NCBI GenBank assembly: GCA_024222455.1
Contig: JAAEPD010000305.1
Location: 1-40,885, forward strand
Direction of reading: 5' to 3'
Length of the DNA: 40,885 nt
Source: Aureispira sp.
GTDB lineage: Bacteria; Bacteroidota; Bacteroidia; Chitinophagales; Saprospiraceae
The translations under genes were made by a program, and so were the position numbers. Positions 22,813-40,639 of this stretch are shown in pieces (position 1 is the stretch's first letter; every line of letters starts with the position of its first letter). A model generated the notes under the pieces. The model was not told where the DNA came from. It did not search any database and saw only the letters and a list, made by a program, of their open reading frames with translations.

Positions 22813-23394
22813 TTAATCCAAAACAGCTAGGCCTGTTTGTACAACCTGTTGAAGATGTTCTGTGGTAGGATTAACTTTAGCAATAACATTAAGACCACTA
22901 TAAAGGGTAAATAAGAAAGCTGCAATAGCCTTAGCATCTTTATTTTCAGTTATTTCGCCTTGCTTCTTCCCTCTATTGACATAATCCATAAAAAACTGCT
23001 CCATAGATTCTTGATTGCTCGAAAGGATTTTGACCATTTTAGCATTATTGGGCAATGATTCAGTAGCACAATTAACTACAAAACAGCCCTTTCTATCCTT
23101 ATCTGCTACACAAGTGTTTATTGACATCATAAATAGCTTCTCCAATCCTTTTCGTACAGAGGATTGGCTATCCAAAAAAGCTCTTAACTTTTGTTGATTC
23201 TCCTGTCTATAATGTTCAAAAGCTTTATGAAACAACTCCTCTTTACCACCATAAGTGTCATAAATACTAGCTCTATTAATGCCTAGATGATCAACCAAAT
23301 TTTGCATAGATGTAGTATTGTAGCCCTGTTTCCAGAACAGTTCTACTGCTTTTTGGAGGACAACTCCTTCATCAAATGATTTTGGTCTAGGCAT
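22813..23394 (-). CDS. TetR/AcrR family transcriptional regulator
   Basis: A 193-residue repressor-type protein. The N-terminal helix-turn-helix (about 27-55: SMQNLVDHLGINRASIYDTYGGKEELF) is typical of TetR. The ligand-binding half contains KGCFVVNCATE, the Cys-containing segment also seen in NemR-like regulators, where a Cys senses electrophiles. It lies 66 nt downstream of a dehydrogenase gene on the same strand. The paired palindromes before that dehydrogenase are the obvious candidate operators. The gene converges on the LRR gene with a 4-nt gap. The inducer is unknown. Confidence 0.93.
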   Translation of the reverse strand: MPRPKSFDEGVVLQKAVELFWKQGYNTTSMQNLVDHLGINRASIYDTYGGKEELFHKAFEHYRQENQQKLRAFLDSQSSVRKGLEKLFMMSINTCVADKDRKGCFVVNCATESLPNNAKMVKILSSNQESMEQFFMDYVNRGKKQGEITENKDAKAIAAFLFTLYSGLNVIAKVNPTTEHLQQVVQTGLAVLD

Positions 23395-23460: not shown

Positions 23461-24210
23461 TTAGACTTGTGCAAATCCGCCATCTACAGGAATCTCCGTA
23501 CCTGTGATATAAGAAGCATCGTCTGAAGCTAAAAACAAAGCAGTTTTAGCAACTTCTTCTGACTGTCCAAAACGTCCTAAAGGCACCATAGATGGGAAAC
23601 TTGAAGCCATTTGGTCAACTTGCTCCTGTGGCATATTGTGCTTACCATAAATTGGTGTATTTATTGGTCCTGGTGCTATAGAATTTACTCTAATTCCTTT
23701 GGAACCTAACTCTGCCGCCAATGTCCTAGAAATAGAACGCAAAGCAGCTTTACTAGATGCATAAGTAGCCATAGCTGGAAATCCTTTCATATTCACTACA
23801 GAAGTATTAAATATTATACTTCCCCCTTCGTTTAAGTGTGGAATAGCCTCATTGATTGTAAATACTGGTCCTTTTACATTTACATTGTAAACCTCGTCAA
23901 ATACCTCTTCTGTCAACTGCCCCAAAGGTTGCATACGGAAGACTCCTGCATTGAGAAACAATGCATCAATTTTGCCAAAGGTATCTACTGTTTTCTGAAT
24001 CAAGGCTTTGCTATCGACTACACTAGATGCTTCAGCCTTAGCTAAAAGATAAGTGCCACTCAACTCGCCTTCTATTCCTTGTAGTTTCTCCAAAGAACGA
24101 CCAGTCAAAACTACTTTAGCTCCTTCTTCCAAAAATAATTTTGCTGTTGCTAATCCAATACCACTAGTTGCTCCTGTTACAATGGCTACTTTACCTGCTA
24201 ATTTACTCAT
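23461..24210 (-). CDS. Classical short-chain dehydrogenase/reductase
   Basis: A 249-residue NAD(P)-dependent oxidoreductase of the glucose-1-dehydrogenase/FabG-like type. TGATSGIG (12-19) binds the cofactor, and NAG is at 87-89. The catalytic residues are S137, Y150 and K154 (TYASSK). The C-terminus TGTEIPVDGGFAQV is typical. All catalytic residues are intact, unlike the SDR at 5790-6677. It is probably controlled by the TetR regulator encoded just downstream: two copies of GAACGATCATTC lie 39-82 nt upstream of its start. This arrangement (TetR plus SDR) is common for oxidoreductases induced by reactive compounds; the substrate is not known. Confidence 0.93.
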   Translation of the reverse strand: MSKLAGKVAIVTGATSGIGLATAKLFLEEGAKVVLTGRSLEKLQGIEGELSGTYLLAKAEASSVVDSKALIQKTVDTFGKIDALFLNAGVFRMQPLGQLTEEVFDEVYNVNVKGPVFTINEAIPHLNEGGSIIFNTSVVNMKGFPAMATYASSKAALRSISRTLAAELGSKGIRVNSIAPGPINTPIYGKHNMPQEQVDQMASSFPSMVPLGRFGQSEEVAKTALFLASDDASYITGTEIPVDGGFAQV

Positions 24211-27941: not shown

Positions 27942-28038
27942 GCCCATAGCTTTAAGTATTCCTATTTAGAGTAGGATAAATCCCTAAAAATGTTGAACTT
28001 TGCCCCCGATTTTTAACTCCCTCAAACCATTCATAATT

Positions 28039-29742
28039 ATGAATATTTTAAAATGGTCTTGGCTATTAATTGGATTATTAGCCATCAGTTCATGGGCTCA
28101 AGCCCAAGATGATAGTGAGCCAGAAGGCGATCTTCGCTCACCAAAGGATGTAATGCATGTACATTTGTATTACCTACAACAAGAACACTATGATGAGGCC
28201 AAAGCCGCAAAGGCATTAGGAATACCAACTAAGGATGAGAATAAGGCTAAAGAAAAGGAATTAGCTGTCAAGCTAAAACAAATACTAGATGGTCGTGGTT
28301 TGCAGGTGCGTATCAATATGATTCCTGATGATTTTGACTATAGAGATACCCTTAGTGGAAATGCAGTGTATACGCCTTTCCCTAATGCTATGCCCGAAAT
28401 CTATTTGGAACTCCCCAAAAAACGTACAAGAAAAGGCGATGAGAAAAAACAATATGCCAAACAATGGCGCTATTCGGCAGAGACTATAGATTTGATTCCC
28501 AAGCTACATCGTCAGGTTTATCCATTAGGTAGCCATATGCTCCTCAACTTGCTTCCTAGTTTTGGTCAACAAAAAGTTTTTGGATTAGCCATTTGGCAAT
28601 ATTTAGCATTAATGATTCTTATACTGCTTAGTTTAGTTCTCAATTTTATCACTTGGCGATTGCTCAATGTCATTTTGCGCTTCTTTGCCAACACTAAACT
28701 TGGCAAAGGGCATTTTGATGAAGACAGTATCAAGAAAATAGCTAAGACAGCGAGTATCCTCTCTGTTGTTTATTTATTCTATCTATTCTCACCAGTGCTT
28801 CAGCTCCCTGTAGGGATGATGTATTATGTCTTAATTATATTAGGTATGCTCACTACTATTTATGTTGTCTTTTTGGGGCTGCATGTTATAGAACTGACAA
28901 CTTCTTATTTTGTTAAGATGGTAGAAAAGACATCTAGCAAATCTGATGATCAACTCCTACCTATTTTTATGCGTACTATCAAGATTTTGGTAGTTATAGC
29001 AGGTAGTATACATGCCTTGAGTATATTGAATGTAAATGTTACGGCACTTATAGCAGGTTTATCTATAGGAGGTTTGGCTATTGCTTTAGCTTCACAAGAT
29101 GCTGTTAAAAACTTGATTGGTTCTGTCATGATCTATGCCGATAAGCCTTTTCAGTTAGGAGACTATGTAACAGGTAGTGAATTTTCTGGAACAGTTGTGG
29201 ATATAGGGTTTCGCTCTACACGTATTCGTACTTCAGATAGCTCTATGATTACTGTTCCTAATGGTAAGATGGCTGATACTGTAGTTAATAATATGGGGGC
29301 AAGAGAGTTTCGTCGCTACAATACTACTATTGGAGTAGCTTACTATACACCACCGGCTTTAATCGAAAAGTTTTTGGAAGGTCTGCATTTGATCAATGAA
29401 GCACATCCTATTACACGGAGTGAACAACATTTTATTCGACTTATTAACATGGGTGCTTCTTCTCTAGATATTATGTTTGTGGTTTATATCGACACTGATG
29501 ATTACACCCAAGAACTAAAAGTAAAAGAAGAATTAGTTTTTGCTATTTTGCGTTTAGCCGAATCGCTCAATGTTCATATAGCATTCCCATCTACTTCTGT
29601 CTATTTAGAAACTATGCCAGAGAAGAAAGGTCTGCCACCTACATACTCTATTAGCGAACAACAACAAGCTAAAGAAGACATGGAAAGCTTCTTAGAGAAT
29701 TTAAAAAAGAAATATGATTCTGAAAATAATCCTATAGTCTAG
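28039..29742 (+). CDS. MscS-family mechanosensitive channel with long N-terminal periplasmic domain
   Basis: A 567-residue protein. A signal peptide (about 1-22, ending SWAQA) precedes a soluble region of about 150 residues. Membrane segments lie near 181-205, 237-255, 261-283 and 313-330. The pore helix is about 334-362, with LSIGGLAIALASQDAVKNLIGS. The MscS beta domain follows (QLGDYV, VDIGFRSTRIRTSDSSMITVPNG), then the alpha/beta C-terminal domain. It releases solutes under membrane tension. I start at ATG 28039, which gives the signal peptide; an in-frame TTG at 28000 would add 13 residues that spoil it. It is longer than the 286-residue E. coli MscS because of the N-terminal domain. Confidence 0.92.
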   Translation: MNILKWSWLLIGLLAISSWAQAQDDSEPEGDLRSPKDVMHVHLYYLQQEHYDEAKAAKALGIPTKDENKAKEKELAVKLKQILDGRGLQVRINMIPDDFDYRDTLSGNAVYTPFPNAMPEIYLELPKKRTRKGDEKKQYAKQWRYSAETIDLIPKLHRQVYPLGSHMLLNLLPSFGQQKVFGLAIWQYLALMILILLSLVLNFITWRLLNVILRFFANTKLGKGHFDEDSIKKIAKTASILSVVYLFYLFSPVLQLPVGMMYYVLIILGMLTTIYVVFLGLHVIELTTSYFVKMVEKTSSKSDDQLLPIFMRTIKILVVIAGSIHALSILNVNVTALIAGLSIGGLAIALASQDAVKNLIGSVMIYADKPFQLGDYVTGSEFSGTVVDIGFRSTRIRTSDSSMITVPNGKMADTVVNNMGAREFRRYNTTIGVAYYTPPALIEKFLEGLHLINEAHPITRSEQHFIRLINMGASSLDIMFVVYIDTDDYTQELKVKEELVFAILRLAESLNVHIAFPSTSVYLETMPEKKGLPPTYSISEQQQAKEDMESFLENLKKKYDSENNPIV

Positions 29743-29829
29743 CAGCATATTCAAGATAAAGTCCGTTCTATTTTATGAGACGTTATTTTACCATATGTTT
29801 TTCGTTGTAGGTAAAATTTATACAATTTT

Positions 29830-29866
29830 CCGTTTAGCTATCCCCTTAGCTAAACGGTTTTTTTTT
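29830..29866 (+). terminator. Strong rho-independent terminator after the MscS gene
   Basis: An 11-bp perfect stem CCGTTTAGCTA/TAGCTAAACGG (29830-29840 and 29847-29857) with loop TCCCCT is followed by nine T residues. It insulates the following ABC operon from upstream transcription. Confidence 0.95.
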
Positions 29867-29881
29867 GCACTTTTTTCAAAA

Positions 29882-29897
29882 ATGACTTGCCAGTCAC
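29882..29897. promoter_or_regulatory. Operator-like palindrome, copy 1
   Basis: ATGACT-TGCC-AGTCAC fits the consensus RTGACT-N4-AGTCAY shared with two further sites at 29916 and 30059. It sits about 87 nt upstream of the promoter -33 element. Confidence 0.65.
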
Positions 29898-29915
29898 ATT
29901 AAATTAGCCTACCTT

Positions 29916-29933
29916 AGTGACTGGGTAGTCACT
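29916..29933. promoter_or_regulatory. Operator-like palindrome, copy 2
   Basis: AGTGACT-GGGT-AGTCACT has perfect 7-bp arms with a 4-nt spacer. It has the same core as copies 1 and 3 and lies about 50 nt upstream of the -33 element. Confidence 0.7.
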
Positions 29934-29983
29934 TTTTGCCAATAAATGACAAATAGCAGTATCAAAAATGAGCTACCTTAACA

Positions 29984-30012
29984 TTTGACATATATAAAAG
30001 GTCTTATATTTG
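29984..30012 (+). promoter_or_regulatory. Promoter of the LolA-like/ABC operon
   Basis: TTTG (29984-29987), a 17-nt spacer and TATATTTG (30005-30012) match the Bacteroidota -33/-7 consensus. The predicted start near 30019 gives a leader of about 140 nt that contains operator copy 3. Confidence 0.72.
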
Positions 30013-30058
30013 CATATAGGATTAGTGATAACAAGTTTATCTATTTTTTTGACTACAA

Positions 30059-30076
30059 TATGACTAGGCAGTCATT
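30059..30076. promoter_or_regulatory. Operator-like palindrome, copy 3
   Basis: AATGACT-AGGC-AGTCATT has perfect 7-bp arms around a 4-nt spacer. It lies about 40 nt downstream of the predicted transcription start, where a bound repressor would block elongation or loop with copies 1 and 2. Confidence 0.7.
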
Positions 30077-30157
30077 CCAGTAATAGCCTATAAACTATTA
30101 TATTGGCTATAGATTGAACTTAAATTGATGTTATTCTAAAATAAAGAATTAGCTATT

Positions 30158-30910
30158 ATGAAAAAAGTAATTTTGAATGTGTTTATCCTGCTTATGGCAG
30201 TTACTGGGCTCTCCGCTCAAGATAAAACCGCTACAGAGATCATCAAAGAGATGGATCAACGTACTAAAGGTACAAGTAGCCAAGGGGAAATGAAAATGAC
30301 AATAGTTCGTCCTACTTGGAAACGTGAAATGCGAATGAAAACATGGGCAAAAGGAGATGATTTATCGCTAGTATTAGTCACTAGTCCTGCTCGTGACAAA
30401 GGTATTGCCTACCTAAAAAGATTCAAAGAAATGTGGAACTGGCAACCATCTATCGACCGTAATGTCAAGATGCCTCCTTCTATGATGATGCAATCTTGGA
30501 TGGGTTCAGATTTCAAGAACGATGATTTGGTAAAACAATCTTCTATTGTAAATGATTACACCCACAAATTGATTGGAAGCGAAACGGTAGAAGGACGTGA
30601 CTGTTACAAAATAGAACTTATTCCAACAGAAGAAGCTGCTGTAGTTTGGGGTAAAGTTATCTCTTGGGTAGACAAAAAGGACTACCTACAGCTCAAAACA
30701 GAGTTTTATGATGAAGATGAATATTTAGTCAACACTATGCTTGGCAAAAAAATCACAGAATTTGATGGTCGTTTATTACCTGCAATTATGGAGATTATTC
30801 CTGCAGATGAAGAAGGACACAAAACGATCATTGAGCAACTCACTATCAAATTTAATACAAAGATGGATGATAAATTCTTCTCTGTTCAAAATATGAAACG
30901 CATCCGATAA
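30158..30910 (+). CDS. LolA-like outer membrane lipoprotein-sorting protein
   Basis: A 250-residue periplasmic protein. The signal peptide is about residues 1-20 (ending GLSA before QD). A LolA/LolB-like beta-sheet domain carries the subfamily hallmark LKRFKEMWNWQPSIDRNVKMPPSMMMQSWMGSDFKNDD, seen here around residues 88-130, which marks the uncharacterised lipoprotein-sorting branch (PF17131-type) and not classical LolA. It would carry a lipid or lipidated cargo between membranes. Its stop codon overlaps the start of the first permease by one base (TAATG), so the two are translationally coupled. The operon promoter and three operator-like sites lie upstream. Confidence 0.92.
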   Translation: MKKVILNVFILLMAVTGLSAQDKTATEIIKEMDQRTKGTSSQGEMKMTIVRPTWKREMRMKTWAKGDDLSLVLVTSPARDKGIAYLKRFKEMWNWQPSIDRNVKMPPSMMMQSWMGSDFKNDDLVKQSSIVNDYTHKLIGSETVEGRDCYKIELIPTEEAAVVWGKVISWVDKKDYLQLKTEFYDEDEYLVNTMLGKKITEFDGRLLPAIMEIIPADEEGHKTIIEQLTIKFNTKMDDKFFSVQNMKRIR

Positions 30911-32127
30911 TGCTTTGGAAACTAGCTTGGCGAAACATTTGGCGAAATAAACGACGTACTATAATTACGGCAGCCTCGATACTCTTTGCAGTATTGGCAG
31001 CAGTGAGCATGAACTCGATACAACGTGGTGTTTGGGACAATATGATCAATAGTGTGGTCAACTCCTACTTTGGTTTTGCACAAATCCATACCAAAGGTTA
31101 TTGGGATGACCGCTCTATCGACAAAGCATTTGCTTTTGATGCAAACTTGCAAAGTTTACCAGAGGATTCTAAGACCCTCAAAACCTTAGTTCCTCGTATA
31201 GAATCCTTTGCTTTAGCGTCTTCCGAAACGATGACAAAAGGAGCGTTGGTAATAGGTGTTGATCCAACTTTAGAAGACGAGTTAACCAACCTTACCTCTC
31301 GTATTCAAGAAGGAGAATACCTTCATGAAGATGACAATGCTGTTTTGATAGCTAAAGGGCTTGCTAAAGATCTAAAATTAGGTATTGGAGATACCATTGT
31401 ATTTGTAAGTCAAGGTTATCATGGCATCAATGCTGCAGGCAAATATCCTGTAAAAGGGATTCTAAATTTTCCATCTCCTGAGCTCAATAGACAAATGGTT
31501 TATATGCCCTTAAAACAGGCTCAATGGCTTTATGGTGCAGAAGGTTTAGTCACCTCTCTAGCTTTGAATATAAAAGATAAAAACAGTGTAGCTCCAACCC
31601 TAAAAGCAATTGAAAGCAAAGTAGATACTGCAATCTATGAACTCATGGATTGGCAAGCAATGATGCCCGATTTGGTACAAGCCAAAGATATGGATACTGC
31701 AGGTAACCAAATTATGTTGGCAGTGCTTTATCTAATTATTGCTTTTGGAATACTAGGAACCATCCTAATGATGACCAAAGAACGAGAGTACGAATTTGGA
31801 GTTTTGGTTTCGATAGGTATGCAACGATGGCGATTAGCCATAATGGTTTGGGGAGAGATTGTACTCTTAGGAATCATGGGCGCTATTGCTGGTATTTTAG
31901 CCAGTTTGCCTATTGTTTTGTATATTCATTACAACCCTATAGAACTCTCAGGAGAAATGGCTGCTGCTTATGATAAGTTCGGTATCGAACCCTTCATATT
32001 AGCATCCTTAGATTTAGATATTTTTTATTCGCAAGCGATATTGGTTGTGATCATTACATCGGTACTAGCGCTATACCCTCTGCTTAGTATCCGAAGATTA
32101 AAAACGGTAGAGGCTATGCGTGCTTAG
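30910..32127 (+). CDS. FtsX/MacB/LolE-type ABC permease (copy 1)
   Basis: A 405-residue inner-membrane permease. The N-terminal motif LAWRNIWRNKRRT leads into the first membrane segment (about 18-40). A large periplasmic domain of about 220 residues contains SQGYHGINAAGKY. Three membrane segments lie near 270-290, 315-345 and 375-395, with the coupling helix KEREYEFGVLVSIGMQ between the first two. This four-segment layout is that of MacB/LolCE-type mechanotransmission transporters. It is closely related to the next permease. It would work with the ATPase encoded at 36149 to move a lipid or lipoprotein to the LolA-like carrier. Confidence 0.93.
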   Translation: MLWKLAWRNIWRNKRRTIITAASILFAVLAAVSMNSIQRGVWDNMINSVVNSYFGFAQIHTKGYWDDRSIDKAFAFDANLQSLPEDSKTLKTLVPRIESFALASSETMTKGALVIGVDPTLEDELTNLTSRIQEGEYLHEDDNAVLIAKGLAKDLKLGIGDTIVFVSQGYHGINAAGKYPVKGILNFPSPELNRQMVYMPLKQAQWLYGAEGLVTSLALNIKDKNSVAPTLKAIESKVDTAIYELMDWQAMMPDLVQAKDMDTAGNQIMLAVLYLIIAFGILGTILMMTKEREYEFGVLVSIGMQRWRLAIMVWGEIVLLGIMGAIAGILASLPIVLYIHYNPIELSGEMAAAYDKFGIEPFILASLDLDIFYSQAILVVIITSVLALYPLLSIRRLKTVEAMRA

Positions 32128-32164
32128 TTGCTAGGAGTTAGTACTGCTTCGCTCTTAGTAGCAA
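32128..32164 (+). other. Intergenic stem-loop between paralogous permeases
   Basis: TTGCTA (32128-32133) and TAGCAA (32159-32164) pair across a 25-nt interior that can form further short pairings. It begins directly after the stop codon of the first permease and lacks a U-tract, so it does not look like a terminator. It may adjust message stability or be a dispersed palindromic repeat. Confidence 0.4.
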
Positions 32165-32264
32165 GTGGTAAGATTTCATTCAAAATTTCCTTTGGAAAAT
32201 CTAAATAAAACCTTAAGTCTAATATACTTACAACAAAGTGGTCTAACTACTAAAGAAAACACAT

Positions 32265-33482
32265 ATGTTACTAAAAATTGCTTGGCGCAATATATGGCGC
32301 AATCGACGGCGAACCCTGATTACAGCAACATCTATTTTCTTTGCTGTATTCTTCGCCATATTCATGAACTCCTTCCAAAGAGGTGTATGGGATAACGTGA
32401 TTAACAATGTTATTCGATTCTACTTTGGTTTTGTGCAAGTGCACCAAAAAGGCTATTGGGAAGAACAATCACTAGACAAGACTTTTGTCTTGACAGATGA
32501 ACTGGTCAACAGTATGGGCAGCCCCAAACAAGTTCAATTAGTTGTTCCTCGTTTAGAATCCTTTGCTTTGGCCTCTCACGGGACCTTGACCAGAGGAACT
32601 TTGGTAGTAGGTATTGATCCTGAAAAGGAAGATAAATTAACCACTTTGGCTAGTAGAGTTTCTCAAGGTGAATATCTACAAGCAGAGGATAAAGCTGTAT
32701 TAGTAGGCGAAGGATTGGCCGAACGCCTAAAAATCGGGTTGGGTGACACTCTAGTCCTAATCAGTCAAGGGTACCATGGTATCAATGCTGCAGGCAAGTA
32801 CCATATCAAAGGTCTCTTAAACTTTGGTTCTCCAGAGTTGAGCAATCAAATGGTCTATCTCCCACTCAAAGAATGTCAATGGTTTTTTGGAGCTGAAAAT
32901 ATGGCAACCTCTCTAGTAGCACATGTCGATGATAAATTTGCTGCCGCTAAAGCCATTAGACAACTCAACACAGAACTAGATACCGCTGCTTACGAAATCA
33001 TAGCTTGGCAGCAAATGATTCCCGAAATATTGGAGATGAAAGAGATGAAGGATTCTAGTAGCAAAATTATGCTTTGGGTTCTATATCTAATCGTCACCTT
33101 CGGAATATTTGGAACAGTGCTTATGATGACCAAAGAACGTCAGTACGAATTTGGTATTCTAACCTCTATAGGTATGAACCGTTCTAAGTTGGCCTTTAGT
33201 GTTTGGATAGAGACTGTATTTCTTGGTTTGTTAGGAGTCTTATTAGGCTTATTGGTTAGTGTACCACTAACCATGTATTTCTATTACAACCCAATTATTG
33301 TAACTGGGGAGCTAGCAGAAATCTATGAAAAATTTGGTATTGAACCTAGTTTATCCACCTCTATAGATCCTGATTTATATTATACACAAGCTATAGTTGT
33401 TTTTGTCATCACTAGTGTATTAGCTATATATCCTGCACTGAAAATATTGAGACTAAAACCAGTGGATGCTATGCGCTCCTAA
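32265..33482 (+). CDS. FtsX/MacB/LolE-type ABC permease (copy 2)
   Basis: A 405-residue permease with the same length and domain order as copy 1: IAWRNIWRNRRRT, a periplasmic domain with SQGYHGINAAGKYHIKG, the coupling helix KERQYEFGILTSIGMN, and a C-terminal LKPVDAMRS. Over the first 60 residues 42 are identical to copy 1 by my count, so the pair arose by tandem duplication. The two could form a heterodimer, as LolC and LolE do. The 137-nt gap before it is longer than other gaps in the operon and holds a stem-loop but no clear promoter or terminator. Confidence 0.93.
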   Translation: MLLKIAWRNIWRNRRRTLITATSIFFAVFFAIFMNSFQRGVWDNVINNVIRFYFGFVQVHQKGYWEEQSLDKTFVLTDELVNSMGSPKQVQLVVPRLESFALASHGTLTRGTLVVGIDPEKEDKLTTLASRVSQGEYLQAEDKAVLVGEGLAERLKIGLGDTLVLISQGYHGINAAGKYHIKGLLNFGSPELSNQMVYLPLKECQWFFGAENMATSLVAHVDDKFAAAKAIRQLNTELDTAAYEIIAWQQMIPEILEMKEMKDSSSKIMLWVLYLIVTFGIFGTVLMMTKERQYEFGILTSIGMNRSKLAFSVWIETVFLGLLGVLLGLLVSVPLTMYFYYNPIIVTGELAEIYEKFGIEPSLSTSIDPDLYYTQAIVVFVITSVLAIYPALKILRLKPVDAMRS

Positions 33483-33494
33483 TTATCAAAAAAT

Positions 33495-34532
33495 ATGAAC
33501 TTACAACTAAAGTTAGACAGGCAATTAATTCTCTTTCTGATTCCTTTGGGGATTTTGATGGGACTAGTAACTTTTATTAATTCACCATTATTTCAAGAAC
33601 ATTCTAATATACTTAGTATAGGAGTGACTATTGATTTATTAGTATCTATTCCAATAGTTTATTATCTAATAATACGAAAAACAAGTATCCCTAAAACTAC
33701 TGTTGTCCCAATTATGGTTATTGGATTAATCGTTGGAACATATTATTTACCACCTGAAAACCAAAACTACCTAACTCTATTTAAAACTTGGATTCTTCCA
33801 ATAATTGAATTATCTATATTTACATTTATCGTTCTAAAAATTAGAACTGTTATTAAAAAATATAATAGCCTTAAATCTGAAGCATCTGATTTTTTCACCT
33901 CACTAAAAGAGGCTTGTCAAGAAATTTTACCTCAAAAAATAGTCTTACCATTTGCTACAGAAATTGCTGTAATTTATTATGGCTTTATTAATTGGAAACC
34001 AAGCCTAATTGGAGAAAATGAGTTCAGTTACCATAAAAAAAGTGGAACTCCAGTTTTGTTAGGAACCCTTATTTTTATGATAGCAATTGAAACTGTTGCT
34101 CTACATCTTTTACTTATGAGGTGGAACGAAGTTATTGCTTGGATTTTAGCTATTCTTAGCACCTATACAGCAATACAAATTCTGGGGTTTACTAAATCCT
34201 TAAAAAGATGTCCAATACGTATTCTTGACAATAAATTAGTCTTACGTTATGGTATTTTAGCTGAAGTTGAAATCCCATTTGAAGACATTAGTAAGATCGA
34301 GTTGTCTAGAGAGCCTATAATACAGGATACTGTAACCAGTAAACTTTCTCCTCTTGGCGATTTTGAAAGTCATAATGTTTTAATTCATTTAAAGAGAGAA
34401 AACATAGTAGTTGGGGTGTATGGAATCAAGAAAAAATTTAAAATCCTAGGCTTACATATTGATGACGAAACTAAATTCAAAGAGAAAATAGAAGGTGTTT
34501 TAACTGATTTATCAAAAAACATATCTAAGTAA
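33495..34532 (+). CDS. Multi-spanning membrane protein with a C-terminal PH-like region, unknown
   Basis: A 345-residue protein with about six membrane segments (roughly 12-28, 40-58, 68-85, 95-112, 183-203 and 208-228). A cytosolic tail of about 110 residues begins CPIRILDNKLVLRYG and contains VEIPFEDISKIEL. That pattern of paired strands resembles the bacterial PH-like domains attached to membrane segments. I recognise no transport motif. It sits 12 nt after permease copy 2 and 63 nt before the third permease, so it belongs to the transcript, yet it is not a known ABC component. It may be a later insertion into the operon. Confidence 0.75.
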   Translation: MNLQLKLDRQLILFLIPLGILMGLVTFINSPLFQEHSNILSIGVTIDLLVSIPIVYYLIIRKTSIPKTTVVPIMVIGLIVGTYYLPPENQNYLTLFKTWILPIIELSIFTFIVLKIRTVIKKYNSLKSEASDFFTSLKEACQEILPQKIVLPFATEIAVIYYGFINWKPSLIGENEFSYHKKSGTPVLLGTLIFMIAIETVALHLLLMRWNEVIAWILAILSTYTAIQILGFTKSLKRCPIRILDNKLVLRYGILAEVEIPFEDISKIELSREPIIQDTVTSKLSPLGDFESHNVLIHLKRENIVVGVYGIKKKFKILGLHIDDETKFKEKIEGVLTDLSKNISK

Positions 34533-34595
34533 CTTTTCTGTGATAAAATATAGTATTTAAACCTATTTATCTATTTTTTAATAAAAAAACAAGTC

Positions 34596-35810
34596 ATGCT
34601 ATTTAAAGTATCTTGGCGAAATATATGGCGAAATCGAACCCGTAGTTTTGTAGTAATTGGAGCTATAGTGGTTGGTGTTTGGGCAGTTATCTTTATGATT
34701 GCCTTCACGATGGGAATCGTTGAAAGTTATGTGAGTAGTGCTATCGAAAATGATATTTCTCACATCCAAGTCCACCATCCTAAATTCAAGGATGAAAAAG
34801 AGGTAAAATTCTACCTAAACGATATTGGAACATTAGTATCTAATGTAGAGCAACAAGCCAATGTAAAAGTAGCTACACAACGTACACTTTCCAATGGGAT
34901 GTTATCTACATCTAAGGGAGCCAGAGGTGTTCAAATTAGGGGCATAGATCCAACTAAAGAAGCTGTTGTCACTAAGTTTGATAAGAAAGTTATAGAGGGA
35001 GACTATTTTGGTAAAGCCAAAAAGAATCCGATCATTATAAGTAAGCGTTTGGCTGACAAAATGAAGGTTAAAATCCGCTCTAAAGTGGTGGTTACTTTCC
35101 AAACGTTAGAAGGTGATATTACTACAGCTGCCTTTCGGGTAGTAGGTTTGTATCGCACCCAAAACTCTACTTTTGATGACATGAATATTTATGTGCAACA
35201 AACAGACCTTAACCGTCTTTTGGGTGGAGAAAGCATAGGTCACGAAATTGCTATGCTCATAGAGGATACTGAGCAACTAGAGAGCACTCAAGCAGCATTA
35301 AAAGCTATGTTTCCTAAACAATTGGTAGAAAACTATAGAGAGATTTCACCTGATGTTAATCTTTACGAAACACAGATACAAATGTCGACTACTATTATTA
35401 TGGTAATTGTAATGTTGGCCTTAGTTTTTGGTATTATCAATACTATGCTGATGGCAGTATTGGAGCGTGTAAGAGAGTTGGGAATGTTGATGGCTGTAGG
35501 AATGAGACGCTTACAAGTATTTTCGATGATTATGCTCGAAACTATCTTTTTGGGGCTGATTGGAGCACCTATTGGGTTGCTGGTCGGATATCTTACAGTA
35601 GTTTACTTCGGTAAAAATGGAATCAACCTTTCTGCCTACTCTAGTGGTATGCAAAAATTTGGTATAGAAGAAATTGTTTACCCTGCTTTAGAATCGGGAG
35701 TATACTTTCAACTAGCAGCAGCAGTAGTAATAACGGCTATTTTAGGAGCCTTATATCCTGCATGGAAAGCTATTCGATTGAAACCGGTAGAAGCTATTCA
35801 TAAGATCTAA
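34596..35810 (+). CDS. FtsX/MacB/LolE-type ABC permease (copy 3, diverged)
   Basis: A 404-residue permease with VSWRNIWRNRTRS at the start, a periplasmic domain (about 45-265), and three C-terminal membrane segments with LERVRELGMLMAVGM as coupling helix. The end is LKPVEAIHKI. It shares the layout of copies 1 and 2 but is clearly more distant and lacks their SQGYHGINAAGKY segment. With a single ATPase in the cluster, the three permeases may assemble in alternative pairs, or this one may be the partner of a copy 1 or 2 subunit. Confidence 0.92.
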   Translation: MLFKVSWRNIWRNRTRSFVVIGAIVVGVWAVIFMIAFTMGIVESYVSSAIENDISHIQVHHPKFKDEKEVKFYLNDIGTLVSNVEQQANVKVATQRTLSNGMLSTSKGARGVQIRGIDPTKEAVVTKFDKKVIEGDYFGKAKKNPIIISKRLADKMKVKIRSKVVVTFQTLEGDITTAAFRVVGLYRTQNSTFDDMNIYVQQTDLNRLLGGESIGHEIAMLIEDTEQLESTQAALKAMFPKQLVENYREISPDVNLYETQIQMSTTIIMVIVMLALVFGIINTMLMAVLERVRELGMLMAVGMRRLQVFSMIMLETIFLGLIGAPIGLLVGYLTVVYFGKNGINLSAYSSGMQKFGIEEIVYPALESGVYFQLAAAVVITAILGALYPAWKAIRLKPVEAIHKI

Positions 35811-35830
35811 TCTACCAAAAACAGACAGCT

Positions 35831-36124
35831 ATGTTAATCGATTTTTTTATAGGTTTTTTATTAATGAATGCCATGCCCCATTTTATTTTGGGGATTTATA
35901 AAGGTCGAATGCTTAGTGCATTTGGATTTAGTGCTAAAGCAAATTTAGCTTATGGTTTACTCAACTATAGTCTATCAATTGGCTTATTTGCTTTTCAATA
36001 TGGATTGGGAGATTTACTAAATCATCCAACCTATTTAGGTGCATTAGTTGTCATGACTATTTATGTCCTAACAGGACAATTTTGGTACAACCTATTTCAG
36101 AAACCTTATTTGAACAATAACTAA
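35831..36124 (+). CDS. Small three-TM membrane protein in the ABC operon
   Basis: A 97-residue hydrophobic protein with about three membrane segments (about 3-22, 42-60 and 68-86). A polar motif MNAMPHFILGIYKGRMLSAFGF runs from residue 13 to 34, followed by ANLAYGLLNYSLS. The dense pattern of Met, His, Gly and Arg suggests a conserved family, but I cannot name it. It lies 20 nt after the third permease and 24 nt before the ATPase gene, so it is very likely a working part of, or accessory to, the transporter. Confidence 0.75.
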   Translation: MLIDFFIGFLLMNAMPHFILGIYKGRMLSAFGFSAKANLAYGLLNYSLSIGLFAFQYGLGDLLNHPTYLGALVVMTIYVLTGQFWYNLFQKPYLNNN

Positions 36125-36148
36125 CTATTATATTAAATATATATTACC

Positions 36149-36841
36149 ATGAAAAATGTAATTTCAGTATCTGGTATCACAAAAACATATAATCCTAAAA
36201 CCATTCCTGTACATGCCTTACAAGGAGTAGATTTAGAAATCGAACAAGGAGAGTTTACAGCATTAGTAGGACCTTCTGGTTCTGGAAAAACAACACTTCT
36301 CAACATTATTGGAGGCCTAGATGAAGCTACAGAAGGCACTGTTATCATCAATGATCAGGATATAACTAAACTATCTGATGGGCAGCTTATCCAGTTCCGT
36401 AAAGAGCATATTGGCTTCGTTTTTCAAGCCTACAACTTAATTCCGGTACTTACAGCTAAAGAAAATGTAGAGTTTGTAATGCTCCTACAAGGTCGCTCTC
36501 AGGCCGAAAGAAATAAGCGTGTCAACGAGCTAATGGCAGCTGTTGGTTTATCAGACAAAATGAACAATCGCCCTTCTCAACTTTCGGGTGGACAACAGCA
36601 ACGTGTAGCTGTAGCAAGAGCTTTAGCGCCTAAGCCTACATTTATCCTAGCAGATGAGCCTACTGCCAATCTAGATTCTAAATCTACCGCCAACTTATTG
36701 GATATGATGGCAGAACTCAACAAACAAGAAAACATTACGTTCGTCTTCTCTACTCACGATCAACGAGTTATTGATAGAGCTAGACGTGTAGTGACTCTAG
36801 AAGATGGTAAAATAGTATCTGATGATCATAGAGATGTTTAG
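36149..36841 (+). CDS. ABC transporter ATPase (LolD/MacB type)
   Basis: A 230-residue cytosolic ATPase with all motifs intact: Walker A GPSGSGKT (41-48), Q-loop Q93, signature LSGGQ (145-149), Walker B FILADE (165-170) and switch H203 in STHD. It belongs to the LolD/MacB/FtsE group by length and by the FRKEHIGFVFQAYNLIPVLTAKENV segment. It is the only ATPase in the cluster and would power the three permeases encoded upstream. A 75-nt gap with no recognised element separates it from the outer-membrane gene. Confidence 0.95.
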   Translation: MKNVISVSGITKTYNPKTIPVHALQGVDLEIEQGEFTALVGPSGSGKTTLLNIIGGLDEATEGTVIINDQDITKLSDGQLIQFRKEHIGFVFQAYNLIPVLTAKENVEFVMLLQGRSQAERNKRVNELMAAVGLSDKMNNRPSQLSGGQQQRVAVARALAPKPTFILADEPTANLDSKSTANLLDMMAELNKQENITFVFSTHDQRVIDRARRVVTLEDGKIVSDDHRDV

Positions 36842-36916
36842 TTTTATCCTCGTCTAAATTCTAATCGTCTAGTATCTAATATCTAGCATAATTCTAATCT
36901 AAAAAATACACCAAGC

Positions 36917-38167
36917 ATGTTACGTCAATGGCTATTGGTAATGGTTCTGCTATTCCCTTTATATAGCATAGCTCAGCATAATACTTCTGATTCTACAAAA
37001 GTCATAAAGACCAAAAAGAAGAAGAAAAAAAAGAAGACTAAAGACCCTTATGCTCCCAAAAAATGGGCCTTGAATGGTTATGTCAAGCAAATGAGCTCTT
37101 TGCTGTTTATCAATGACCCCATGCTTTCTTTTATATACCCTAACAAGATGATGCAGGACAATCTGCTCCACAACCGCATCAATTTTAGTTGGTATATCTC
37201 AGATGCGTTTACCTTTAAAACTGATTTACGGACTCGCATATTTTATGGAGAAGTCGTTAGAAGTATCCCTAACTATGGTGATTTAGTAGATAATGCTAAT
37301 AATGATTTTTTTGACCTTTCTTGGGTTGTGCTCAACGAGAAAGCGGCTGTTATTCATACCATGATTGACCGTCTATACTTAGACTTTGCGAAGGGCAATT
37401 GGCAAGTTCGCTTGGGGAGACAACGTATCAACTGGGGAATCAATACTATGTGGAATCCTCACGATATTTTTAATGCTTATAACTTTACTGATTTTGACTA
37501 CGCCGAACGTCCTGGTAGTGATGCTCTAAGGGTTCAATATTATACTGGTGTAGCTTCTAGTATTGAGTTAGCCGTAAAAGTTTTTGACAAATGGGAAGAA
37601 GCAACAGCTGGCCTTTTATGGAAGTTTAATAAATGGAACTATGATTTTCAAGCCTTAGCAGGCATTACCAACAATGATTTAGTTGGAGGTTTAGGATGGG
37701 CAGGCAATCTAGGTACAGCAGGTTTTAAGGGCGAAATGTCTTATTTCTATAGTTTGGGTGACTCTGTAGCTACTCGACATAGTTTTGCAGCCTCTCTAGG
37801 GTTCGACTATATATTCTCTAATGGTGTTTATCTAAATGGTGGCTTACTCTACAATAGCAATGGCATTGTCAATGGGAGCATTAGTCAACTTTTCACGTTT
37901 GAACTATCCGCCAAAAACCTCTATCCTTACAAGTACTCTATGGTCTTGGCAGCAGGGCATGCTTTCACTCCCCTGATCTCAGGTAATTTAAGTGTAGTTT
38001 ATAGTCCAGGAGAAAGCCATGCCGTGTTTATTAGTCCAACTATAACTTATTCTATCAAAGAAAATTGGGATATTGATCTGATTGGACAAATCACCTTAAA
38101 CAAAAGTGGTAATAAATATATCAGCCCCATGCAGTTTATCTTTCTGCGCTTGAAATGGAGTTTTTAG
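36917..38167 (+). CDS. Outer-membrane beta-barrel protein of the ABC operon
   Basis: A 416-residue exported protein. The signal peptide is about residues 1-19 (ending YSIA before QH). A short linker contains an eight-lysine run (about 34-41), and the rest is beta-barrel-like. Its strands alternate and are rich in Gly, Tyr and Phe, and it ends in FLRLKWSF with the terminal Phe typical of outer-membrane barrels. Motifs such as LRQRINWG-like GRQRINWGINTMWNPHDIF and YAERPGSDALRVQYY recall DUF1302-type barrels that accompany LolA-like/ABC clusters. It would be the outer-membrane end point of the system. Confidence 0.85.
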   Translation: MLRQWLLVMVLLFPLYSIAQHNTSDSTKVIKTKKKKKKKKTKDPYAPKKWALNGYVKQMSSLLFINDPMLSFIYPNKMMQDNLLHNRINFSWYISDAFTFKTDLRTRIFYGEVVRSIPNYGDLVDNANNDFFDLSWVVLNEKAAVIHTMIDRLYLDFAKGNWQVRLGRQRINWGINTMWNPHDIFNAYNFTDFDYAERPGSDALRVQYYTGVASSIELAVKVFDKWEEATAGLLWKFNKWNYDFQALAGITNNDLVGGLGWAGNLGTAGFKGEMSYFYSLGDSVATRHSFAASLGFDYIFSNGVYLNGGLLYNSNGIVNGSISQLFTFELSAKNLYPYKYSMVLAAGHAFTPLISGNLSVVYSPGESHAVFISPTITYSIKENWDIDLIGQITLNKSGNKYISPMQFIFLRLKWSF

Positions 38168-38254
38168 GGTCTGTTAGTCTTCTATTATTTGCAGATTCGA
38201 TGAATTGAACTATCTTACTGGTAGCTAAACCTTAATCATCGAGCAAATATCAAC

Positions 38255-39322
38255 ATGGAAGATTTTATTATAAAACATCCAGCAATATCTTGGGTCATTG
38301 CAGTTACGCTCTCTACACTTCTATCTATTTTTGTATTCACTCAAATTCTAAATTTAATTGAGCGAAAATGGAAGAAGGCAAAAAGCTTTACCCATATTTT
38401 CAGAACACTGCGCAGAATCATTAAAGTCTCGTTTACGATAGTGGGACTTATTCTTATTAGTTATATCTTTTTTGATGAGAAATCTTATGATGATGTTAGC
38501 GAAAATTTAGGCATCATTGTCTGGTTTGGAATTGTAGCCATATTTACTGTTTTGGCAGTTGCTATCAATCAAAACTATTTCCACAACAAAGTTGCCCACC
38601 TATCTACACGAGACAAAGGAGACACTACCCTTTTCAAATATCTAAGCTATCTATCTACAGCATTTATCTATTTTATAGGTATTATTTTGGTGGCAGGTGT
38701 TATTCCACCACTGAGAAATTTGGCAGCTGCCGTAGGAACTGGAGCAGGTGTTTTTGCACTAGTAGCAGGAGTAGCAGCACAGGAAGGAATCGCCAACCTA
38801 ATTGGAGGTTTGTTTATAGCCTTTTTTAAACCCTTTAGGATAGGAGATATTATCAAAGTTGGAGATGATGTAGTTGGGCATGTTGAAGACCTTAATCTAC
38901 GTCATACTGTTATTAAAAACTTTGAGAACAAGCGAATTATTATTCCTAATGCTGTTATTAATAAAGAAAACATTATTAACTACCATCTCAACGATTCTAA
39001 AATCTGTGAATGGATAGAAGTGGGGGTTGCCTATTCCTCCAATCTAGAACATGTCATAACAGTACTTAGAGAAGTTTGCGAGAGCCATCCACACTGTTTA
39101 GATAACAGAACAGAAGAAGAAAAGGCTGCCAACAAACCAATTGTTGACATACAAGTTATCAATTTAGGAGACAGCTCCATCAACCTAAGAGCTTGGGTTT
39201 GGTGCGATACCTACCTCACAGGATTTAAGATGCGCAACCACCTTTTCAAAGGTATAAAAGAACGTTTTGAAAAAGAAAACATCGAAATTCCTTTCCCACA
39301 TTTAGTCACTATTGCACACTAG
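38255..39322 (+). CDS. MscS-family small-conductance mechanosensitive channel
   Basis: A 355-residue inner-membrane channel with membrane segments near 10-35, 55-73, 85-104 and 130-150. The pore helix is about 155-190, carrying AVGTGAGVFALVAGVAAQEGIANLIGG. The MscS beta domain follows (FRIGDIIKV, VEDLNLRHTVIKNFENKRIIIPN) and then the C-terminal domain. It differs from the channel at 28039: there is no signal peptide or periplasmic extension. The gene is 87 nt after the operon, with no firm promoter match, so read-through is possible. Its TAG stop shares bases with the stop of the converging gene (CTAG at 39319-39322). Confidence 0.92.
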   Translation: MEDFIIKHPAISWVIAVTLSTLLSIFVFTQILNLIERKWKKAKSFTHIFRTLRRIIKVSFTIVGLILISYIFFDEKSYDDVSENLGIIVWFGIVAIFTVLAVAINQNYFHNKVAHLSTRDKGDTTLFKYLSYLSTAFIYFIGIILVAGVIPPLRNLAAAVGTGAGVFALVAGVAAQEGIANLIGGLFIAFFKPFRIGDIIKVGDDVVGHVEDLNLRHTVIKNFENKRIIIPNAVINKENIINYHLNDSKICEWIEVGVAYSSNLEHVITVLREVCESHPHCLDNRTEEEKAANKPIVDIQVINLGDSSINLRAWVWCDTYLTGFKMRNHLFKGIKERFEKENIEIPFPHLVTIAH

Positions 39323-39987
39323 TGTGTATAACCAATTATACCTCTTATTCCAAAATCAGCTGTAATGGTTTGATATTCACCTAAGCCTACTCGAGCAAAG
39401 AAATTGGCTCCTAACAGGAAACTATAGCTCATATCAAACTCATGAGGAATAATGCCCACTTCAGCAAAATAAGTAACAAAAAATGGATTTTTTAAATCTT
39501 CATATACCACTGTATTTCTATTAAACTCCATGCGAGAAAACTGCGCTCCTGCTCCAAAGCTAAGCCCAATTCCTCCTACTGGAACATAAAAATTTAGACT
39601 TACAGGGAAAGCCAAAGCGCTCTGCCCTTTTCGTTCATCAAAATCATAACTAAAAGGCATATAACTTACCCCTCCTTCTATAGATAGATAATATTCATTG
39701 TACCAAGCTAAACCTTGATGTATTGTCTTAGTATCAATACACATCAATATTCCTAAACTAAAAGATGGCATTACATTAAGAATTTGTCCTGCCGAACGAT
39801 GCCCTGAAACCTTTGAGAACTCATGATTAATAGGTCGTTGATACCAATGATATAAGTTCCAACCTAAAGAACCTATTGGTCCTACTCTTACTGTTAACTT
39901 GTCTAGTTTAGGCATTTTTTGTGCCTGTAGGGTTGATGTAGATATTAAACAACTCAAACAACCTATTAAAAGTAATAATCTATACAT
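39319..39987 (-). CDS. Outer-membrane beta-barrel protein (PorT-like size), tandem copy 1
   Basis: A 222-residue exported protein. The signal peptide MYRLLLLIGCLSCLISTSTL ends before QAQ, supporting ATG 39987; an in-frame TTG at 40020 would extend it by 11 polar residues. The mature part is a small barrel with SLGWNLYHWYQRP, GLAWYNEYYLSIEGGVSYMP and KNPFFVTYF, lacking known enzymatic motifs. The same segments recur in the neighbouring copy, so the two are tandem paralogues. The size resembles eight-stranded outer-membrane barrels; the function is unknown. It starts 13 nt after the copy 2 stop. Confidence 0.8.
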   Translation of the reverse strand: MYRLLLLIGCLSCLISTSTLQAQKMPKLDKLTVRVGPIGSLGWNLYHWYQRPINHEFSKVSGHRSAGQILNVMPSFSLGILMCIDTKTIHQGLAWYNEYYLSIEGGVSYMPFSYDFDERKGQSALAFPVSLNFYVPVGGIGLSFGAGAQFSRMEFNRNTVVYEDLKNPFFVTYFAEVGIIPHEFDMSYSFLLGANFFARVGLGEYQTITADFGIRGIIGYTH

Positions 39988-40000
39988 ATCTCTGTTAGTT

Positions 40001-40639
40001 TTAGTATCCTTCTGGTGCAAAAGTTAGGAAACCTCGAACCCCTAAATCTATCGTCATGGTTTCATTGTTGCCAAAGCCTACTCGACTAAAAAAATTAACT
40101 CCACCAAAAAAACTATATCCTGCGTCAATACTATGAGGCACTACTCCAAACTCTATGAAATAGGTAACAAAAAATGGATTTTTTAAGTCTTTATAAACCC
40201 CTCTATTTCTATTAAACTCCGTACGAGAAAACTGAGCGCCAGCTCCTATTGTCAAAGCAGCACCATATAGAGGAATTAAAGTACCTACTTGCACAGGAAA
40301 AGCTAAAGCACTTTGCCCCTTATGCTCATCTAAATCAAAACTAAAAGGCATATATTTAACACCTCCCTCAATGGTCAAGAAAAAAGTATCATACCAAGCT
40401 AGCCCTCTACGAATCCTTTCAGAATCAAACTGAATCAATGTTCCTATACGAAAAGTAGGCAAGACATTGAGTACCTGTCCGACCGAACGTTTGCCTCCTG
40501 AAGCTATAGAAAACTCATGATTGCTTGGGCGTTGATATAAATGATATAAATTCCATCCTAAGGAGATTATAGGAGCTACCCCTACTTTTACTTTTTTAAG
40601 TTTGGATTTACTCTGCGCTTGGCTTGCAACTGTGCCGTC
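40001..40639 (-). pseudogene. Outer-membrane barrel paralogue, tandem copy 2, missing its signal peptide
   Basis: The reading frame is open from 40639 down to the stop at 40001 (about 212 codons) and aligns with copy 1 along its whole length, including SLGWNLYHLYQRP and KNPFFVTYF. It begins DGTVASQAQSKSKL, matching the end of copy 1's signal peptide (STLQAQKMPKL). An in-frame TAG at 40640-40642 directly precedes that. The first usable start codon inside is a TTG at 40462, which would cut off a third of the barrel. The signal-peptide-encoding part has been lost at the junction with the poly-A tract at 40642, beyond which a transposase-like frame starts. It is probably non-functional. Confidence 0.75.

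Follow-up and report, generated by a model that had tools for sequence, protein, structure and literature searches.

The DNA analysed here, called the window, is the 40,885-nucleotide contig C305 of an Aureispira sp. draft genome (7.76 Mb, 683 contigs, 97.6% complete). It carries an operon of eight open reading frames (ORFs; 30158-38167) that a first-pass annotation, made from the sequence alone, had proposed to be a dedicated route for a lipid or lipoprotein from the inner to the outer membrane; a check of the ORF list confirmed that all eight lie in one direction, on the plus strand. The analyses below indicate that the locus is a real, conserved and probably inducible trans-envelope transport cassette, with a core of five genes and not eight. 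Its features are as follows.

29830..29857, plus strand: terminator-like hairpin behind the upstream MscS-type gene (11-pair stem, then a T run)
29883..29896, no strand assigned: operator-like palindrome 1, TGACTTGCCAGTCA (motif scans)
29918..29931, no strand assigned: operator-like palindrome 2, TGACTGGGTAGTCA (motif scans)
29984..30012, plus strand: presumed Bacteroidota-type promoter, TTTG-N17-TATATTTG (pattern scan)
30061..30074, no strand assigned: operator-like palindrome 3, TGACTAGGCAGTCA, 3' of the promoter-like site (motif scans)
30158..30910, plus strand: predicted periplasmic LolA_like carrier, PF17131 (Pfam, fold match)
30910..32127, plus strand: permease A copy 1, MacB_PCD and FtsX (Pfam, hydropathy)
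32265..33482, plus strand: permease A copy 2, local tandem duplicate (Pfam, identity, tree)
33495..34532, plus strand: putative inserted passenger, a membrane protein of 345 aa that weakly matches bacterial PH (GC content, no match in related loci)
34596..35810, plus strand: permease B, MacB_PCD and FtsX (Pfam, nearest solved chains)
35831..36124, plus strand: putative inserted passenger, 97-aa hydrophobic protein (GC content, rarity)
36149..36841, plus strand: LolD/MacB-type ATPase (TIGR02211 score, ABC motifs)
36917..38167, plus strand: outer-membrane beta-barrel, DUF1302-like, predicted OprD/Occ/AlgE-type channel (model, fold match)

In a Pfam scan, the product of 30158-30910 matched LolA_like (PF17131) with 191.8 bits against a curated cut-off of 30, and those of 30910-32127, 32265-33482 and 34596-35810 were all recognised as MacB_PCD plus FtsX permeases, each with four transmembrane (TM)-like segments in a simple hydropathy scan. 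The ORF at 36149-36841 encodes an ATP-binding cassette (ABC) ATPase in which Walker A, LSGGQ, Walker B and H-loop motifs were all found; LolD (TIGR02211) ranked top of 206 NCBIfam families for it, with 237.8 bits and a cut-off of 307.75. With four-TM permeases that have a large periplasmic domain (MacB_PCD plus FtsX) and a separate ATPase, the cluster has the make-up of a Type VII (MacB/FtsX/Lol) ABC transporter. The barrel protein (36917-38167) has a signal-like start and a C-terminal ...KWSF (by eye). Of the other two proteins, that of 33495-34532 has six TM-like segments by hydropathy and weak bacterial PH matches in Pfam, and that of 35831-36124 (97 aa) has no family match in Pfam or NCBIfam and just one segment above the hydropathy threshold applied to the permeases.

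Conservation of the cassette and its extra genes

A carrier search of 198 genomes of the order gave matches at E<=1e-3 in 62 and at E<=1e-45 in 51, own genome included (hand count of rows). Neighbourhoods were then compared for 131 loci (52 from carrier matches and 80 named loci surrounding relatives of permease B, one duplicate removed); because selection of every locus rested on a carrier or permease match, the counts speak for gene order and not for natural frequency. All five core genes occurred together in 86/131 loci, and in 81/131 they ran on one strand exactly in the sequence carrier, permease A, permease B, ATPase, barrel. Of the 100 loci in which both permeases and the ATPase were seen, 14 were without carrier or barrel, several of these at contig ends. 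The locus titles name Bacteroidales, Flavobacteriaceae, Chitinophagales and Ignavibacteria/Melioribacteraceae/'Chlorobiota'. Next to more distant carriers (26-33% identity; eight loci, L080-L087), the neighbours were more distant ABC genes or none in view. The conserved unit is therefore five gene types, namely carrier, permease A, permease B, ATPase and barrel, across Bacteroidota and Ignavibacteria.

Three variants of this arrangement were noted in passing. One locus (L155) has two permease pairs (A-B-A-B) ahead of ATPase and barrel; another cassette is split, with carrier and barrel adjoining at one contig site and permeases and ATPase at another (L061 and L150, judged from length to be one contig); and a further carrier gene (G119:C4:178870-179527) contains in-frame stops and is apparently a decayed copy.

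Within the window, the third permease is a local duplicate of permease A. Copies 1 and 2 are 56.5% identical to each other and 28-29% identical to permease B, and a FastTree phylogeny of 85 permeases pairs them as sisters, with weak support (0.58), within a clade of nine (support 0.998). The two-copy arrangement in L049 and L053, from one genome, is a separate duplication (support 0.92). The transporter is therefore basically an A-B pair; that the two versions of permease A might pair alternatively with permease B is speculation.

The 345-aa and 97-aa proteins had been taken by the first-pass annotation as parts of the machine, a view to be refuted by their absence from all homologous clusters. 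This condition comes out against them: the five-gene core is conserved, and blastp against the related loci that were fetched gave no match to either protein at E<=1e-3. Their genes have a guanine-plus-cytosine (GC) content of 0.296 and 0.306, respectively, with 0.37-0.395 in the core genes. The 97-aa protein was found in 2/395 genomes of the phylum, own included, and no cassette gene lies within the 9 kb examined around the other copy. The 345-aa protein was found in 23/396 genomes of the order and has a second copy in the own genome (contig C110); around the four homologues whose surroundings were examined, the neighbours are unrelated and no cassette gene is nearby. As they are unmatched in related loci, low in GC and have homologues that sit apart from cassette genes, both genes look like inserted passengers foreign to the machine, and a machine of eight genes was rejected on the same insertion-like features.

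Different, mostly small ORFs lie within the cassette span of twelve other loci (L042, L049, L053, L061, L066, L155, L170, L173, L176, L177, L178 and L182), as if the operon often tolerates insertions.

Promoter region and candidate TetR regulator

The earlier proposal of one regulated promoter is plausible, given the hairpin after the upstream MscS gene and a promoter-like site flanked by three palindromes. A scan of the window for TTTG-N17-TATATTTG, which we take to be the Bacteroidota-type promoter, gave three matches on the plus and five on the minus strand, with one plus-strand match in the gap before the operon; a sigma-70 scan was uninformative (27 found, 30.3 expected). Around the promoter-like site are three perfect TGACTNNNNAGTCA palindromes (29883, 29918 and 30061), and all perfect ones are in this same intergenic gap. 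With one mismatch allowed, the window holds four sites against 1.38 expected, a number reached in 4/100 shuffles. Genome-wide, 12 sites were counted against 3 for a reversed control pattern. Four of the other sites share one sequence (TGACTCATCAGTCA); they lie on contigs C440 and C584, with three on C440 at intervals of about 700 bp, and probably belong to a repeat instead of being operators.

The cassettes of relatives are often accompanied by a TetR gene. Of 95 readable loci, 53 have it immediately ahead of the carrier in the same orientation (39 of these 53 with <=20 bp between the two or an overlap), and four have it in divergent orientation; 13 further loci are cut off. A palindrome, TGAC-N6-GTCA, precedes 12/57 cassette-adjacent TetR genes, with 0.13 expected and a maximum of two in 200 first-order resamplings. 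Directly upstream of the relatives' carriers there is no TGACTNNNNAGTCA-like site except one imperfect (L090), presumably because the promoter there precedes TetR.

The window cassette has no adjoining TetR gene. Its TetR has probably been separated from the operon and would still control it in trans, the candidate being a gene on contig C358. With a profile of 15 cassette TetRs, the C358 protein was the best of 14 matches in the genome (53.1 bits). A TGACTNNNNAGTCA-type site, TGACTAGGTAGTCA, lies 53 bp before its listed TTG start, within a palindrome with 11-base arms (by eye). Additionally, the probable recognition helix of the C358 protein (AKGSVYQYF) is similar to the one in the cassette TetR of L042 (AKGSLYNYF), upstream of which is the motif TGACTGACCAGTCA. 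Placement of the C358 TetR in NCBIfam is weak (ScbR, 42.6 of 150; FadR, 38.8 of 200) and so gives no pointer to its inducer. The TetR gene within the window (22813-23394) was set aside as regulator, with 39.6 bits against 53.1 for C358; it adjoins a short-chain dehydrogenase/reductase (SDR) gene (23461-24210) and is probably unrelated to the operon.

Carrier, barrel and relation to housekeeping Lol

The carrier has a signal-like N-terminus without a lipobox cysteine (by eye), and its structure was modelled with a predicted local distance difference test (pLDDT) score of 91. The model is closest to Porphyromonas gingivalis LolA3 (9tp6; Z 26.6, 2.8 Å over 224 residues, 25% identity), the DUF1329 structure 4z48 (Z 26.5, 26% identity), 3bk5 (Z 26.2) and 3buu (Z 24.3), and the same four chains were also recovered by a sequence profile of the carrier. 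Z was 14.1 to P. gingivalis LolB and <=12.3 to classical LolA. The strong PF17131 match and the fold place the carrier in the PF17131/DUF1329/LolA3 branch and not in classical LolA. Consistent with this placement, scores with the NCBIfam models LolA3 (NF053579; 19.9 of 83) and LolA1 (NF053572; 14 of 100) are low, Pfam PF03548 and PF16584 gave no match at E<=1, and all LolA-family cut-offs were missed.

The barrel model (pLDDT 87) has Z of 22-24 to OprD/Occ, chitoporin, MOMP and AlgE channels, Foldseek likewise pointing to AlgE/Occ channels, and a sequence search at E<=1 gave no solved relatives. DUF1302 matches at E<=0.01 were found in 18/57 members of the barrel family, whose best conserved motif is GRQRINWG..WNP.DIFN. 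For permease B, the nearest solved chains are LolF, MacB and LolC. Among the ten window proteins scanned with Pfam (28036-39322), there was no MacA-type adaptor or TolC-type duct, as MacAB-TolC would have; nor did any of the ten belong to the resistance-nodulation-division (RND)/MMPL family.

The first-pass annotation would also have been refuted had this been the only LolCDE-like set in the genome, and comparison with other permeases came out otherwise. Against TIGR02212 (lolCE), its permeases score 99-115 bits where 362 are needed, and permeases on contigs C530 (212 bits, the highest among those scanned), C385 (169 bits) and C437 (162 bits) score higher; that on C437 has an adjoining ATPase. 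A housekeeping Lol role for the cassette was rejected on the ground of these better LolC/E-like permeases. Nothing in the cassette was recognised as LolB-like. Elsewhere in the order, a PF16584 match at E<=0.1 was present in 126/149 genomes and above the cut-off in 86/149; in 26 genomes (hand count from two lists) a strong cassette carrier coincides with a PF16584 match at E<=1e-3, and the cassette therefore exists beside classical LolA there. Taken with the conserved core and the frequent TetR gene of its own, these comparisons support the first proposal as far as it described a dedicated route from the inner to the outer membrane that is probably inducible and separate from housekeeping Lol. 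A lipoprotein cargo, which it had allowed for, is not supported, since the carrier is in the PF17131/DUF1329/LolA3 branch, for which the best-tested setting found is hydrophobe efflux (PMC6394551).

Predicted function and alternatives

The reading favoured here, at somewhat better than even probability, is that the five genes form a TetR-repressed, ATP-driven exporter of a hydrophobic molecule through both membranes. The ABC part would draw a greasy molecule from the inner membrane using ATP; the LolA-fold carrier would receive it, cross the periplasm and pass it to the Occ/AlgE-type barrel, which would release it into or through the outer membrane. The TetR would repress the cassette, in the own genome from C358 in trans. 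What the data show is the conserved gene order, the protein families, the carrier and barrel folds as predicted, the pattern of operator-like sites, the duplication of permease A and that the two extra genes are missing from the related loci fetched. The direction of transport, the repression, the hand-over and the stoichiometry are what we infer, as is a cargo that would be small and hydrophobic, of fatty, terpenoid, porphyrin-like or lipid nature.

Several observations weigh against this reading. The window barrel scores 18.4 bits with DUF1302 (Pfam), below the cut-off of 23.2. No TetR gene is within reach in 38/95 readable loci, TGAC-N6-GTCA is absent before 45/57 cassette-adjacent TetR genes, and the C358 TetR is ahead of the next TetR by only 1.4 bits. 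Besides TetR, no neighbour family is shared by more than 13 of the fetched loci, so that adjacent genes do not point to a cargo. Lipoproteins are the best-known cargo of LolA-fold carriers and of LolCE-like permeases. Searches of the own genome with PF03548, NF053572, PF16584 and a profile of six LolA proteins of its family did not detect classical LolA, which counts against a simple picture of two complete Lol sets there; LolA profiles are weak in the host family, several members reaching only E 1e-4 to 0.1, and the own genome is a draft. Furthermore, a quintuple LolA/LolB mutant of Flavobacterium johnsoniae is reported to be viable with a surface lipoprotein still exposed, which leaves room for an alternative lipoprotein route (PMC11885536). 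In Thalassolituus, an MMPL/LolA-like protein is up 42-fold and a neighbouring porin appears on a long-chain alkane, which the authors relate to inward passage of the alkane (PMC6304351).

Some of these points would fit a second, inducible lipoprotein-sorting route, in which the ABC part would free a subset of lipoproteins to the carrier and the barrel would aid insertion or surface exposure. The undetected LolA, the lolCE matches of the permeases, the nearness of permease B to LolF, MacB and LolC, and the unknown route by which F. johnsoniae without all five known LolA/LolB proteins delivers a surface lipoprotein (PMC11885536) are all in keeping with it. We nevertheless regard such a route as possible but unlikely, and as less likely than export of a hydrophobic molecule: the carrier falls under every LolA-family cut-off and has PF17131 as its match, the genome has better LolC/E candidates elsewhere, no LolB-like gene was recognised in the cassette, the 26 genomes have both carriers, and P. 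gingivalis LolA3 (9tp6) is described as binding LolB very weakly and being without LolA's conserved arginine (PMC13103446).

Transport could also run inward, or serve lipid recycling, the barrel taking up a hydrophobic nutrient or lipid, the carrier shuttling it inward and the ABC part receiving it. OprD/Occ porins, which are among the fold neighbours of the barrel, are uptake channels. When iron or haem is limiting, TetR-MMPL-LolA operons of Porphyromonas and Prevotella are induced along with genes for haem uptake (PMC10434189, PMC10470040), and the alkane response of Thalassolituus would agree with uptake. However, the exporter AlgE shares the barrel fold, AmeABCD is an exporter according to its authors (PMC6394551), and the Type VII ABC systems that the abstract of PMC12646458 names extract, export or pass force outward; inward transport thus appears improbable, more so than lipoprotein sorting. 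An eight-part machine with the 345-aa and 97-aa proteins as real components is very improbable indeed. Both extra genes sit within the operon, run in its direction and leave short gaps to their neighbours, but they bear the marks of insertion described above (no match in related loci, low GC, homologues beside unrelated genes), and other cassettes have other inserted genes.

The nearest tested counterpart, a functional analogue that speaks for export, is AmeABCD of Castellaniella defragrans (PMC6394551). It is inducible and joins a LolA-superfamily periplasmic protein and a DUF1302 outer-membrane protein to an inner-membrane pump; by its fold match to 4z48, the window carrier is likewise of the LolA-superfamily (DUF1329-like) type. 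Deletion of AmeABCD lowers monoterpene tolerance and slightly raises dye accumulation in de-energised cells. It differs in that its pump is RND (HAE3-type) and not Type VII ABC, in an additional COG4447 periplasmic protein, and in a longer carrier (451 aa, DUF1329). PG1175-1181 of P. gingivalis and three similar operons of Prevotella intermedia, all strongly regulated, also encode TetR together with an 'outer membrane lipoprotein-sorting protein', but with an MMPL (RND-type) pump and adjacent ABC ATPase genes; iron limitation raises them 13- to 136-fold in P. gingivalis, the rise in P. intermedia being 40- to 223-fold (PMC10434189), and they also respond to haem limitation (PMC10470040). P. 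gingivalis LolA3 has the carrier fold branch in common with the window, although no operon or pump is given for it and the word 'operon' is absent from the main text (PMC13103446). In Thalassolituus oleivorans, TOL_3187/TOL_3188 resemble the cassette in a LolA-like domain adjoining an outer-membrane porin and in induction by a hydrophobic substrate; there, the LolA-like domain is fused to an MMPL pump and the authors see alkane uptake (PMC6304351).

Among ABC-driven systems, LolCDE-LolA-LolB shares a Type VII ABC and a LolA-fold carrier, whereas the cassette has another LolA family, no recognised LolB, a barrel and often its own TetR, and is not the genome's best Lol-like set. By description, Borrelia BBJ23-29 is likewise a predicted export cluster of a LolA-like protein, a MacB/Lol-like ABC and an outer-membrane barrel; its barrel is of the Omp85 family, it has tetratricopeptide repeat (TPR) proteins, and its one permease was modelled as a homodimer (PMC13078400). 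YbbAP-TesA, a Type VII ABC outside the Lol group, also speaks for the favoured reading, since extraction of hydrophobic compounds has been proposed for it; it hands these to a hydrolase, and the abstract of PMC12646458 describes no LolA-type carrier or barrel. No description of an ABC-type cassette such as the present one was found among the listed matches of full-text searches in the open-licence literature, which does not prove that none exists.

More tentatively, at a little less than even probability, the cassette may represent a widespread class of ATP-powered trans-envelope exporters in Bacteroidota and Ignavibacteria, composed of a Type VII ABC, a diffusible LolA3-type carrier, a DUF1302/Occ-type barrel and its own TetR. 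Such a class would correspond, on the ABC side, to the AmeABCD and PG1178-81 systems that RND pumps drive, and might account for some of the traffic to the outer membrane that F. johnsoniae is inferred to run independently of LolA/LolB. Orphan PF17131/'LolA3' carriers, of which some have solved structures, would thereby gain a defined engine in the inner membrane and a defined exit in the outer one. Bacteroidota must, by the F. johnsoniae work, have routes to the outer membrane that bypass LolA/LolB (PMC11885536), and a conserved, self-contained and probably inducible operon with pump, carrier and barrel is a directly testable candidate for one.

MscS-type mechanosensitive channel genes are present on both flanks of the operon (28000-29742 and 38255-39322), and relatives of the first are near the cassette in 9 of the 80 named loci (L123, L125, L126, L128, L129, L132, L148, L171 and L191). 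Beyond the second, on the minus strand (39319-40462), two adjoining ORFs encode similar small proteins (by eye) and are apparently a tandem duplicate.

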